Part shown: positions 14,370 through 20,491 of the stretch, piece by piece
How positions within the stretch are numbered: position 1 is the first letter of the stretch
How the letters are laid out: each line of letters opens with the position of its first letter
Origin: Thalassobaculaceae bacterium
GTDB lineage: Bacteria; Pseudomonadota; Alphaproteobacteria; Thalassobaculales; Thalassobaculaceae
Length of the DNA stretch: 33,951 nt
Direction of reading: 5' to 3'
NCBI GenBank assembly: GCA_029212785.1
Contig: JARGOG010000041.1
Span: 1-33,951, forward strand
Program-made: the position numbers and the translations under genes
The notes under the pieces: generated by a model
Seen by the model: the letters and a program-made list of their open reading frames with translations, nothing else
Database searches by the model: none
Told to the model about the DNA's origin: nothing

Positions 14370-16571
14370 TTACGGTAGCCATGCCTCATGCCGTCGGCTC
14401 AGTTCATCCCTCGATATGAGGGCGGTGCCGTTGAGTGTCAATTCGCCGCCCTCGGCCACGCTGCCGATGACGGTCGCGACAACGCCGGCCACCTCGGCCC
14501 GCGCGGTCAGGGCGGCCGCATCGCCGGTGGTGACCACGTAGCGCCCCTGGTCCTCGCCGAAAGCCCAGGCATGGGTCACGGCGCCCTCGGGGGCTGTCAG
14601 ATCGGCGCCGAATCCGCGCGAGGCCATCGCCATCTCGGCGACCGCGACCAACAGACCGCCATCGGAGACGTCGTGACAGGCACTCACGGCGCTATCGGCG
14701 ATCAGCGCGCGCACCAGGTCGCCTGTGCGCTTCTCCGCGGCCAGGTCGATCGGCGGCGGCGCGCCTTCCTCCCGGCCTTCGATCTCGCGCAGGTAAAGGG
14801 ACGCGCCGAGCCAGCCGTCCTTGCGGTCATTCGGCTGGCCGAGCACGATCAGGGTCTCGCCGGCACTCTTCAGCGCCGGGGTCGCGAGCTTGGCGACATT
14901 CTCGATCACGCCGACACCGCCGATCACCGGGGTCGGCAGGATGGCCGCACCCTCGGTCTCGTTGTAGAGCGAGACGTTGCCCGAGACGATCGGGTAGTCC
15001 AGCGCCCGGCAGGCATCGCCCATGCCGGTCACGCAGCCGACGATCTGGCCCATGATGGCCGGCTTCTGCGGGTTGCCGAAATTGAGGTTGTTGGTCGCGG
15101 CGAGTGGCGTGGCACCGGTGGCGGTGATGTTGCGCCAGGTCTCGACCACCGCCTGCGCGCCGCCGGTCTTCGGATCGGCCAGGCAGTAGCGCGGCGTGCA
15201 GTCGACGGTGACCGCGAGGCCCCGCTCGGTGTCGCGAATGCGGACCACGCCGCTGTCGGCGCCGGGGCGGATCATGGTGTCGCCCATGACCAGATGGTCG
15301 TACTGCTCCCAGATCCAGCGGCGGCTGGCCATGTCCGGGCAGGACATCAGCGTCGCCAGAACCTCGCCCAACGGCGCCTTCGGGGCCGGGACGTCGCCGG
15401 CGGCGATCACCGGACGGGCGGCGGTGGGCACATGCGGACGGTCGTATTCCGGCGCCTCGCCGACCAGCGGCTCGACCGGGATGTCGCACTGAACCTCGCC
15501 ATCCTTCTTCAGCACGATGTGGCCGGTCTCGGTCACGGTGCCGATGACGGCGAAGTCCAGGTCCCACTTATCGAACACCGCCCGCGCCTCGTCGGCACTC
15601 TCCGGACGGATGATGATCAGCATGCGTTCCTGGCTCTCGGACAGCATGATCTCGTAGGCGGTCATGCCTTCCTCGCGCACCGGCACGCGGTCGAGATCGA
15701 GCTCGATACCGAGCCCGCCCTTGTCGGCCATCTCGACGCTGGAGGAGGTGAGACCGGCGGCGCCCATGTCCTGGATGGCGATGATGCAGTCGCGCTCCAT
15801 CAGCTCCAGGCAGGCTTCCAGCAGCAGCTTCTCGGTGAAGGGGTCGCCGACCTGGACGGTGGGCCGCTTCTCCTCGCTGTCCTCGTCGAACTCCTTCGAC
15901 GCCATGGTCGCACCATGGATGCCGTCGCGGCCGGTCTTGGCCCCGACATAGACCACCGAGTTCCCCGGTCCGGCGGCGGCCGAGTAGAAGATCCGGTCGG
16001 CCTGGGCCAGGCCCACGGTCATGGCGTTGACCAGGATGTTGCCGTTATAGGCCGGATGGAAATTCACCTCGCCGGCCACGGTGGGCACGCCGACGCAATT
16101 GCCGTAGCCGCCGATGCCGCGGACCACGCCGGAAACCAGATGGCGGGTCTTGGGGTGGTTCGGATCACCGAAGCGCAGCGCGTTCAGATTGGCGACGGGG
16201 CGCGCGCCCATGGTGAACACGTCGCGCAGGATCCCGCCGACACCGGTCGCGGCTCCCTGGTAGGGCTCGATGAAGCTCGGGTGGTTGTGGCTCTCGATCT
16301 TGAAGACCGCGGCCAACCCGTCGCCGATGTCGATGACGCCCGCATTCTCGCCCGGGCCCTGGATCACGTGCGGCCCCTCGGTCGGCAGGGTCTTCAGCCA
16401 GCGCTTGGAGGATTTGTAGGAGCAGTGCTCCGACCACATGACCGAGAAGATGCCGAGCTCGGTCAGGTTCGGCTCACGGCCGAGGATGCGCAGGACGACG
16501 GCGTATTCGTCGGGAGTCAGGCCGTGCTCGGCCACGACCTCGTCGGTGATGGCGGCGTTGGGAAGGGTCAT
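14370..16571 (-). CDS. purL: phosphoribosylformylglycinamidine synthase subunit PurL
   Basis: A 733-residue small-type PurL. With PurS and PurQ it converts formylglycinamide ribonucleotide to the amidine, using ATP and glutamine, in step 4 of de novo purine synthesis. Visible hallmarks are [15 protein letters not shown] (active-site H49), the glycine-rich [42 protein letters not shown] and [16 protein letters not shown] near residue 630. The length is standard for the small form, which lacks the glutaminase domain supplied here by purQ. It starts 12 bp after purQ ends; bolA and grxD follow. A long antisense frame covers it but looks like a coding shadow. Confidence 0.97.
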
Positions 16572-16583
16572 TGTCTATCCGGT

Positions 16584-17249
16584 TCAGTGCAGCGCTTTGA
16601 CCAGGCCGTCGAACAGGCCGCGCCCGTCGGTGCCGCCATGGAGGGCTTCGATCGCGTTCTCGGGATGCGGCATCAGGCCGAGCACCGTCTTGGTGTCGTT
16701 GTAGATGCCGGCGATGTCGCGCTGGGAGCCGTTCGGGTTCGTGCCTTCATATCGGAACGCCACCTGGCCGCGATCCTCGATCCGGTCGAGCGTCGCCGGA
16801 TCGGCGAAGTAGTTGCCGTCGTTATGGGCGACCGGCACCGAGATCACCTGACCGTCGCTGTAGCCGCTGGTGAACAGGCTCTGCGAGGTCTCGACCTTCA
16901 GCTGGACGGTCTTGCACACGAATTTCAGGCCGGCATTGCGCATCAGCACGCCCGGCAGCAGCCCGGTCTCGGTGAGGATCTGGAAGCCGTTGCACACCCC
17001 CAGCACCGGGACGCCCCTGTTGGCCCGTTCCTTGACCGTGCGCATGGCGGGCGACAGGGCGCCCATGGCGCCGGCGCGCAGATAGTCGCCATAGGAGAAG
17101 CCGCCGGGGACGACGATCAGGTCGACGTCGGGGATCTCGGTTTCCTTGTGCCAGATCATGGCGGGGTCGTTGCCCGAGGCCTGGCGCAGGGCCATGACCA
17201 TGTCGCGGTCGCGGTTCGAGCCGGGGAAGACGATGATGGCCGATTTCAT
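16584..17249 (-). CDS. purQ: phosphoribosylformylglycinamidine synthase subunit PurQ (glutaminase)
   Basis: A 221-residue class I glutamine amidotransferase that supplies ammonia to PurL. The nucleophile cysteine is C86 in [10 protein letters not shown], and the partner histidine and glutamate are H195 and E197 in [11 protein letters not shown]. The N-terminus ([14 protein letters not shown]) and [13 protein letters not shown] are typical. It is followed directly by purL. Its usual upstream neighbour purS is displaced: a histidine kinase gene ends 113 bp before the purQ start. Confidence 0.97.
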
Positions 17250-17362
17250 GGGCGCTCCAACGGCGGTTGCCCCGAACGCTCGATACGTCGGTGGCGGGAG
17301 GACCTGTTCGGCGGGAAACTAGGGCCGTGCGCGTTTGTGTGCAAGCGCGGCAAGCGGCGGGC

Positions 17363-19327
17363 TCACGCCGTCGCCGCGGGCTTGCTTCCATCGGCGCCGA
17401 TCCGGTCTGCCGGGAGCCAGATCGTGACGGTGGTGCCGACGCCGAGTTCGCTGTGAATCGAAAGACTTCCGCCGTGCAGCTCGACGAAGGCCTTCGACAG
17501 CGGCAGGCCGAGGCCGATGCCCTCGTACTTGCGGTTCAGCGCACTGTCGACCTGCTCGAACGGGCGCAACACCTTGTCGATGTCGCGCGTCCGGATTCCG
17601 ATTCCCGTATCGCGGACCCGAATTTCCAGCCCGCCCTCGCAGATTTCGGCGTCGATGGTCACGATGCCGTCGGCCATGGTGAACTTCGAGGCATTGGCGA
17701 TCAGGTTGAACAGGATCTGGCGGATCAGCCGTCCATCTGCCCAGGTCGGTGGCAGGTCGGCTGGGATGTCGATCTCGATCCGCGGTGCGGTCCCGGTCTG
17801 GCGGCTGCGCACCATGCCGACCGAGGCGGAGACCTCGGTGGCGATATCGACCCGGCTCTCGCGCAGCATGATCTGGCCGATTTCGGCGCGGGTGAGGTCC
17901 AGCATGTCCTCGATCAGCGACAGCAGGCTGTGGCCGCTGGCCTGCACGTCGCGGGCATAGGCGGTGTAGCGCTGGTCGCCGAGCGGACCGAAGACTTCGC
18001 TGACCAACAGATCGGAAAAGCCGATGATGGCGTTCAGCGGTGTCCGCAGCTCATGGCTGACCGTGGCCAGGAACATCGACTTCGCCCGGTTCGCCGTCTC
18101 CGCGTCACGGAGTGCGGTGCGCAGGGCCTGCTGCGCCTGCTGCAGCTCTTCGCGATAGTTGGTTTCATCGACCGAGGTCCCCCTGTACCCCTTGAACTCT
18201 CCGTCATCACCGAAGACCGGAACGCCGGAGAGCCGCCAGTGCCTGAGATCGCCTTGGGCGTCGGGTATGGCGTAGCGGAAATCGCGGAACGGCTCGTGCC
18301 GCTCCATGGTTTCCTTGTGCTCTTTCCAAATCGGATCGGTCTCGGGGTCGCCGCTGGCCATGTCCCAGCGCGTGCGGCCCAGGAACTGGCTGGCCTGCGG
18401 AAAGTGGGTATCGATGCGCATATCCATCAGCATGGTGAAGCGCAGCTTGGGGTCGAGTTCCCAGAACCGATCGGAGCTGGCCCGCACGAAGTCGCGCAGG
18501 CGGGCATCGCTCTCCCGTAGCGCATGTTCGGCCCGCATCATCTCCGAAATGTCGCTGACGGTGGTGATCGTGCCGCCGTCAGGGAGTGGTGCGTCGCGGA
18601 TCAGATACCAGCGGTTGCTGGCCAGCGGAATCAGGTGATCCTCGCCGCCGCGTCGGTGCTGCGTGATGCGCTCCTGGATGTAGCCCTCGGGATCCTCCAC
18701 ATCCACCGGGATGACGCCGAGCGCGGCTCGCCGCCGGACCAGTTCTTCGAAGGATATGCCGATCTCGAGCGGGACGCCGGTATCCCGGGCGATCTGTTGC
18801 ATGGCGGGATTGACGTAGATCAGCCGGTCGCCCGGATCCCAGATCTCGATGCCCTGGCGGGCATGATCGAGACCGCGGCGCAGCGACTCGTAGCTGATCA
18901 TCGATCCGCCAACGCGATCCCGCGCCTTGCGGCCGCGCTCATCGAAGGTGAGGGCGATGCCGCCGGAGGGAAGGCGTGATCCCGAGATCATCAGAATCGA
19001 CCCGTCGTGCAGAAGCCGTTCGATCTGGAATGGGAGAGCGTTCCGCGTGAAATCCAGCCGGTCGCGGGCGCGGTCCTCGGGGTCGCCGGCGCCGTAGTCG
19101 CCGCGTTCGGCGTTGCGTCGGATCATGGTCTCATAGGGCCAGCCGGGAACCAGCGTCTCCGGGGCGAGGTCGTTGATCTCGGCGAAGCGGGGATTGCTGG
19201 CGACGAGTTTCAGATCCGCGTCGAAGACGGCGATGCCGATGCCCGCATGGGTCACCGCCTCCAGCAGCGCCTGTGTTTCCTGCGTTGAAGGCTTCTCAGA
19301 CAAACGTTCGACCGTCGGACTCGGCAC
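17363..19327 (-). CDS. cytosolic PAS sensor histidine kinase
   Basis: A 654-residue kinase without signal peptide or membrane helix. It has three PAS-like segments: about residues 20-135 (GIGIAVFDADLKLVASNPRF), 145-265 (GIEIWDPGDRLIYVNPAM) and 275-395 (DRFWELDPKLRF ... GYRGTSVDET); the first two look like PAS_7. HisKA follows with the phospho-accepting H425 in ATVSHELRTPLNAIIGFSDL, then a HATPase domain with N545 (NLIANASKF), DTGIGI (573-578) and GIGLGL (603-608). No receiver domain is attached and no response regulator is nearby. The start is a GTG with a poor ribosome-binding site, so it could lie elsewhere. It sits between purS and purQ. The signal is unknown. Confidence 0.93.
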   Translation of the reverse strand: MPSPTVERLSEKPSTQETQALLEAVTHAGIGIAVFDADLKLVASNPRFAEINDLAPETLVPGWPYETMIRRNAERGDYGAGDPEDRARDRLDFTRNALPFQIERLLHDGSILMISGSRLPSGGIALTFDERGRKARDRVGGSMISYESLRRGLDHARQGIEIWDPGDRLIYVNPAMQQIARDTGVPLEIGISFEELVRRRAALGVIPVDVEDPEGYIQERITQHRRGGEDHLIPLASNRWYLIRDAPLPDGGTITTVSDISEMMRAEHALRESDARLRDFVRASSDRFWELDPKLRFTMLMDMRIDTHFPQASQFLGRTRWDMASGDPETDPIWKEHKETMERHEPFRDFRYAIPDAQGDLRHWRLSGVPVFGDDGEFKGYRGTSVDETNYREELQQAQQALRTALRDAETANRAKSMFLATVSHELRTPLNAIIGFSDLLVSEVFGPLGDQRYTAYARDVQASGHSLLSLIEDMLDLTRAEIGQIMLRESRVDIATEVSASVGMVRSRQTGTAPRIEIDIPADLPPTWADGRLIRQILFNLIANASKFTMADGIVTIDAEICEGGLEIRVRDTGIGIRTRDIDKVLRPFEQVDSALNRKYEGIGLGLPLSKAFVELHGGSLSIHSELGVGTTVTIWLPADRIGADGSKPAATA

Positions 19328-19353
19328 AGTTTCGGCTCGATTACTTTACGCGC

Positions 19354-19373
19354 GATTCTGTTATCGCAGAATC
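19354..19373. promoter_or_regulatory. inverted repeat upstream of the histidine kinase
   Basis: GATTCTG (19354-19360) and CAGAATC (19367-19373) form a perfect 7-bp inverted repeat with a 6-bp spacer, 27 bp before the kinase start. It could be an operator or an RNA hairpin in the leader. The flanking sequence is richer in A+T than the genes. Confidence 0.4.
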
Positions 19374-19412
19374 TTACCGATTCGACGCGCTAAAAATTCG
19401 ACAGGCGCACGG

Positions 19413-19431
19413 TCATCGGGACAACCGATGA
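19413..19431 (-). terminator. hairpin downstream of purS
   Basis: TCATCGG (19413-19419) and CCGATGA (19425-19431) are perfect 7-bp arms with a 5-nt loop, 22 bp past the purS stop. No T-run follows directly on the minus strand; a short TTTTTA lies about 15 bp on. It may be a weak terminator or attenuator separating purCS from the kinase and purQL. Confidence 0.35.
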
Positions 19432-19452
19432 ATGAGTTATTTTAGAAAAACT

Positions 19453-19723: not shown

Positions 19724-20491
19724 TTACTGAACGGCCTGCGGTCCTTTGATGTCCATCGGTCCGGCCTCCGGCAGGACGCCGAGGCGCCGGGCGACCTCCT
19801 GATAGGCCTCCTTGACGCCGCCGAGGTCGCGGCGGAAGCGGTCCTTGTCCATCTTCTCGTTGGTCTCGATGTCCCAGAGCCGGCAGTTGTCCGGGCTGAT
19901 CTCGTCGGCGAGCACGATCTGCACTTCGTCATGCTCGTTGTACCAGCGGCCGAACTCCAGTTTGATGTCCACCAGCCTGAGACCAACGCCGAGGAACAGG
20001 CCGGCGAGGAAATCGTTCACCCGCAGAGAGAGCGTGACCATGTCGTCCAGGTCCTGCGTGGTCGCCCAGCCGAAGCAGGTGATGTGCTCTTCGGAGATCA
20101 TCGGATCGCTCAGCTCATCGGACTTGTAGTAGTACTCGATGATCGAGCGCGGCAGCGAGGCGCCTTCCTCCAGGCCGAAGCGCTTGGCAAGCGAACCGGC
20201 GACCACGTTGCGGATCACCACCTCGACGGGCAGGATCTCGACTTGGTGGACCAGTTGCTCGCGCATGTTGACGCGCCGGATGAAATGATTGGGGATGCCG
20301 ATCTCGGTCAGCTTCGTCATCAGGTATTCGCTGATGCGATTGTTCAGCACGCCTTTGCCCGTGATCAGGCCGTGTTTCTGGTTGTTGAACGCGGTCGCGT
20401 CGTCCTTGAAGTACTGAATGATCGTACCGGGCTCTGGGCCCTCGTACATGATCTTCGCCTTGCCCTCGTAGAGCTTGCGGCGTCTGGCCAT
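19724..20491 (-). CDS. purC: SAICAR synthase PurC
   Basis: A 255-residue phosphoribosylaminoimidazole-succinocarboxamide synthase, which joins aspartate to CAIR using ATP. The start at 20491 is chosen because TGGAGA precedes it and the family N-terminus [19 protein letters not shown] follows; the open frame continues to 20632 but is not conserved. Both SAICAR synthetase signatures are visible: [18 protein letters not shown] and [11 protein letters not shown]. It is the first gene of the purC-purS unit and has a good promoter match about 90 bp upstream. Confidence 0.97.

Follow-up and report, generated by a model that had tools for sequence, protein, structure and literature searches.

The formation of FGAM synthetase from PurS, PurQ and a small PurL is established (PMC3261824). 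In the stretch of Thalassobaculaceae DNA analysed here, 33,951 nucleotides long and called the window below, the gene for a histidine kinase lies between purS and purQ. This raises the question of whether the kinase has a role in purine synthesis or is a neighbour of the purine genes. The best explanation is probably that purCS and purQL form separate transcription units, with an orphan multi-PAS kinase inherited in the gap between them.

The kinase and its neighbours in the window

The minus strand of the window carries, in order, purC (19724..20491, with an ATG start codon at 20491), purS (PF02700; 19453..19695, start 19695), the kinase gene (17363..19327), purQ (GATase_5; 16584..17249, start 17249) and purL of the small type (14370..16571), the purine genes being identified with Pfam. 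Genes, strand and order match those of the purCSQL cluster, as does the presence of PurS and PurQ as proteins separate from a small PurL. The distance from purS to purQ is 2206 bp, thus the two are not adjacent as they are in that cluster. The minus-strand spacer between purS and the kinase (19328..19452) is a possible site for a putative kinase promoter and has a G+C content of 0.45, compared with 0.66 for the window. Nothing in an Rfam scan of the window scored above the gathering score and therefore no known riboswitch is present in it. A search of one paper library on purS/purQ and histidine kinases, Thalassobaculum kinases, and alphaproteobacterial purQ/purS order found no description of this arrangement.

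The preliminary description of the locus, as a 654-residue soluble three-PAS kinase without a receiver between purS and purQ on the same strand, is borne out by both the ORF and Pfam. The gene has a GTG start codon in the ORF list. Its product has two PAS_7 domains (best match 28-129), a PAS_4 domain (312-390) that is the weakest of the three PAS matches, HisKA (415-482), and HATPase_c (531-641). HisKA and HATPase_c are both above the Pfam cut-offs, placing the protein by sequence among the HisKA sensor histidine kinases, and Pfam finds no receiver domain fused to it, so it is not a hybrid kinase. A membrane helix is not likely, the highest 19-residue Kyte-Doolittle mean being 1.34 and located within HisKA.

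Identity between the kinase and eight orthologues is 45-73%, and H425, N541, N545, D573, G575, G577, G605, and G607 are unchanged across the nine aligned sequences. The gene is under purifying selection, with dN/dS of 0.21-0.28 in six pairs within its genus; the pur genes have 0.03-0.21. Given this identity, these dN/dS values, and the invariance of H425 and the ATPase motif residues, the kinase is not a chance ORF. Within the genus, HisKA is 93-96% identical to that of the window's kinase and the PAS domains 57-71%. An AlphaFold model made from the nine sequences is poor overall (mean pLDDT 67.2, pTM 0.32), and its Foldseek matches are to HK853-type cores and to PAS kinases of a generic kind. 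Sequence and fold searches alike show an ordinary PAS-HisKA kinase, with a core similar to those of HK853 and DivL. It shares its PAS_7, PAS_7, PAS_4, HisKA, HATPase_c layout with orphan soluble multi-PAS HisKA kinases and is unusual among them only in its location. Most likely it acts as sensor kinases of this kind ordinarily do: the PAS domains would read a cytosolic redox, gas, energy or small-molecule signal, upon which H425 would be phosphorylated from ATP and the phosphate passed to a response regulator encoded elsewhere.

The absence of a partner regulator beside the kinase, also claimed previously, holds for the whole of the window's 37.6-kb contig (C128), where Pfam finds no Response_reg domain. 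The genome has 69 receiver matches, 68 of them above the cut-off, and all are on other contigs. As no response regulator gene adjoins the kinase, the locus is not a paired two-component system.

Membership of the DivJ/PdhS group of DivK-type cell-cycle kinases, with an incidental placement at this locus, is conceivable but unlikely. When the core is ranked against NCBIfam, DivJ is first and PdhS third. However, all scores are far under the curated cut-offs (192.6 against 1000 for DivJ and 188.0 against 2000 for PdhS), so by score the kinase is not an equivalog of either, and the likeness to these alphaproteobacterial cell-cycle kinases is confined to the core. The ranking itself says little because TorS scores second, and many paralogues in the genome have similar HisKA sequences.

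Distribution of the kinase and of the purS-purQ gap

Genera are labelled g1 to g12 within family f1, the window belonging to g1. The closest named relative is Thalassobaculum litoreum DSM 18839 (NZ_FNBW01000009.1; 69% identity over the best segment), which NCBI taxonomy places in the Thalassobaculaceae, Rhodospirillales. Using residues 1-400 of the kinase as query at E 1e-60, orthologues were identified in 10 of 36 family genomes and 4 of 12 genera (4/6 genomes of g1, 3/3 of g3, 1/1 of g5 and 2/2 of g6). Compared across related genera, the purCSQL locus has the order purS-kinase-purQ in all eight genomes with the three genes on one contig. In another, G010, purS and the kinase are together and purQ is on a separate contig, and in G019 the contig with the kinase stops 17 bases ahead of its start codon. 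The kinase is therefore not limited to one strain, as had been considered, but is old and has kept its place in this small group of marine bacteria. This distribution rules out a strain-specific insertion.

Across the species collection of GTDB-220, a scan gave 28 kinase loci, eight of which are from Thalassobaculaceae. Seven of these eight have pur genes beside the kinase; the other is a 3.6-kb contig without a pur match. Beside the kinase in the 20 loci from outside the family, which are stretches of 3.8-13.6 kb, no purC, purS or purQ was found at E 1e-5; purL matches below 50% identity were discarded in this check.

In the metagenome-assembled genome G048 (L137, L171) both the kinase and purL are interrupted. 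Because purL is affected as well as the kinase, decay is less likely here than an error of assembly or sequencing.

Both purS and purQ were surveyed in 33 of the 36 family genomes, since G041 and G042 gave neither gene and G044 only a purQ fragment. In every one of the 24 genomes with both genes on one contig they are 1.38-6.33 kb apart, whether or not there is a kinase. The genes are on different contigs in six of the others, and in three only one was found. At class level, 11 of 16 comparison genomes have purS and purQ on one contig, and in nine of these 11 the genes are within 300 bp of each other, the exceptions being G038 (2.26 kb) and G039 (0.78 kb). Unlike the purCSQL cluster, the Thalassobaculaceae have purS and purQ apart wherever they share a contig, and they evidently tolerate purS being set apart from purQL. 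The content of the gap differs by lineage and may be the kinase, a PAS-GGDEF gene (g2), an MGS-like gene (g8 and g9) or several genes (g12). As the gap is family-wide and its contents are varied, the kinase is not needed to explain the split. The suggestion of a chance insertion that uncoupled PurS from PurQ and PurL was thus right as to the uncoupling, but this is a property of the family that is independent of the kinase.

The five g2 genomes have a PAS-GGDEF gene on the strand opposite to the pur genes (L096:2837-4222, L097:2881-4251, L168:3615-5150, L169:2804-4189, and L170:2649-4082), recognized by Pfam in four and by sequence similarity in G046. A GNAT-type gene is called next to purS in three of the five. 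Between purS and purQ in g8, g9, and g12, the opposite strand carries a gene whose C-terminal domain is MGS-like (methylglyoxal synthase; L098:2137-3186 and similar), the domain call in g8 and g9 coming from Pfam on one member. In G011 an MGS-like gene is upstream of purQ (L122:4656-5765). Two genomes have an additional feature between purS and the kinase: a DDE_3 transposase gene in G007 (BAL199; L117:3813-4910), and in G018 a 157-aa ORF on the opposite strand that has no Pfam match and may not be a gene.

For the history of the locus, a tree was constructed from concatenated PurC, PurS, PurQ, and PurL of 32 family and 8 outgroup genomes, G024 being left out for length. The kinase carriers and two non-carriers form one clade with support of 100/100. 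Both non-carriers, G001 and G005, have genomes of 1.5 Mb and fall within g1, where they group as sister to the window's genome (support 82/87, on 24% of columns). Presence of the kinase requires two state changes on this tree, or one without the two reduced genomes, which fits a history of one gain and one loss. The genus groups reappear in the kinase tree, which does not resolve their deeper branching. As part of the favoured explanation, the pur genes would have been broken between purS and purQ into the two units, and the orphan cytosolic kinase would probably have entered the gap in the common ancestor of the four genera and been inherited there since.

Expression of purQ

Directly behind the kinase stop codon, on the minus strand at 17314..17345, there is a promoter-like element of purQ, CTTGC-N19-TAGTTTCC, recognized by consensus only. 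It is within the spacer between the kinase and purQ (17250..17362), in which 84 of 118 alignment columns are invariant among four genomes of g1, compared with 35 of 128 in the spacer between purS and the kinase. Conservation in g1 is also high in the purQ leader that follows the element (17250-17313), where the four genomes do not differ over the final 24 bases ahead of the start codon.

Of 31 family purQ upstreams of 200 bp, 27 contain a looser pattern, TTGC-N18..20-TA[CGA]N[TG]T, where dinucleotide shuffles lead one to expect 0.4. The pattern was derived from the very upstreams used for the count, and the counts, coming from related genomes, are not independent. The spacing is exactly 19 in all 27. 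Only one of eight class-level outgroups has the pattern, this being G038, in which purS and purQ are also split. A stricter pattern is found in 20 of the 31 and in none of the eight. Family genomes with the kinase all have the element (9/9), as do 18 of the 22 without it; those missing the looser pattern are G001, G005, G014, and G023. A similar strict pattern occurs genome-wide at chance level (5 matches, and 4 for a reversed control), so the element is not just a common sequence. This points to a promoter-like sequence belonging to purQ and separate from the kinase, a further difference from the purCSQL cluster, and purQL is probably transcribed from a promoter of its own just upstream of purQ.

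Other expression signals are fewer. A relaxed promoter pattern is ahead of the kinase in only two of the eight kinase-bearing genomes other than G019 and G048 (0.4 expected). Two general scans were not informative, one for sigma-70 with no promoters in the region, which is under the shuffled mean, and one for terminators with a single terminator-like site, placed within purQ on the opposite strand, a count that is also below its shuffled mean.

Co-transcription of the kinase with purQL had been proposed. In its stronger form, a kinase-purQL unit in g1 would start with the kinase, whose level, or that of purQL, would depend upon read-through, and the purQ promoter would be secondary. All are on the same strand, the kinase-purQ spacer is just 113-117 bp in the four g1 genomes, and no terminator was seen in it, so read-through is possible in g1; the place of the kinase is also kept in eight of eight genomes. 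The conserved promoter-like element within the spacer argues against such a unit, as does g6 (G019 and G010), where the kinase is followed immediately by a FrhB/FdhB-type gene on the opposite strand. In G010 the first 177 residues of this gene are upstream of purQ and residues 180-430 are behind the kinase, on separate contigs. Since the gene spans the contig break, we infer the g6 order of purS, kinase, opposite-strand FrhB, and purQ across that break. Co-transcription is disfavoured and a kinase-purQL unit of this kind is quite doubtful. The locus is an example of an enzyme complex with its subunit genes in two probable transcription units, whatever gene sits between them.

The question of a purine link

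With purCS and purQL as probable separate units, the kinase is probably a stable neighbour in the purine cluster and not a purine sensor, because the pur genes that flank it look separately controlled. The contrary suggestion, of a kinase that detects some purine, nucleotide or energy signal and through its output controls either purine synthesis or growth, draws on its position among the pur genes and nothing else, and is very improbable. Two reduced genomes retain purS, purQ, and purL without it, 26 of the 36 family genomes lack it, there is no regulator or receiver near it, and some neighbours that are not pur genes hold their place too. In genus g3, used as a baseline for gene order, the TANGO2-family, IF-2B-family, and adenylosuccinate lyase genes do so, and others do not. 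The held position of the kinase is consequently weak evidence of function, although a position kept for so long could itself signal a functional tie. Nothing was found that links the kinase to purines, and the purine-linked role once proposed for it is unlikely and unproven.

It is least probable of all that the break between purS and purQ took in PAS signalling genes repeatedly (the kinase and, on the opposite strand, the g2 PAS-GGDEF gene) with output tuned to purine or GTP supply, the Thalassobaculum kinase being co-expressed with purQL by read-through and informing a distant regulator of the purine or energy state. Insertion in an operon should not by itself be taken to imply a regulatory link, and the kinase here is an orphan that can be tested, at a location that is fixed in Thalassobaculum and its relatives.

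In the two reduced genomes (L094 in G001 and L095 in G005), purS and purQ are separated by 1.4-1.6 kb of AT-rich non-coding DNA with no kinase, at the site that the kinase occupies in free-living relatives, and an intact purL is 72-73 kb away. The three genes therefore persist without the kinase. A pseudogene remnant of the kinase was sought in both with tblastn and rejected (best E 3.2); the non-coding stretch is at most consistent with decay of the kinase. G001 and G005 are probably Candidatus Endolissoclinum faulkneri L5 and L2, a tunicate symbiont with genomes reported at 1.51 and 1.48 Mb, in which coding density is low and the intergenic sequence is degraded (PMC3851785). The same source gives T. 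litoreum as its nearest characterised relative by 16S rRNA.
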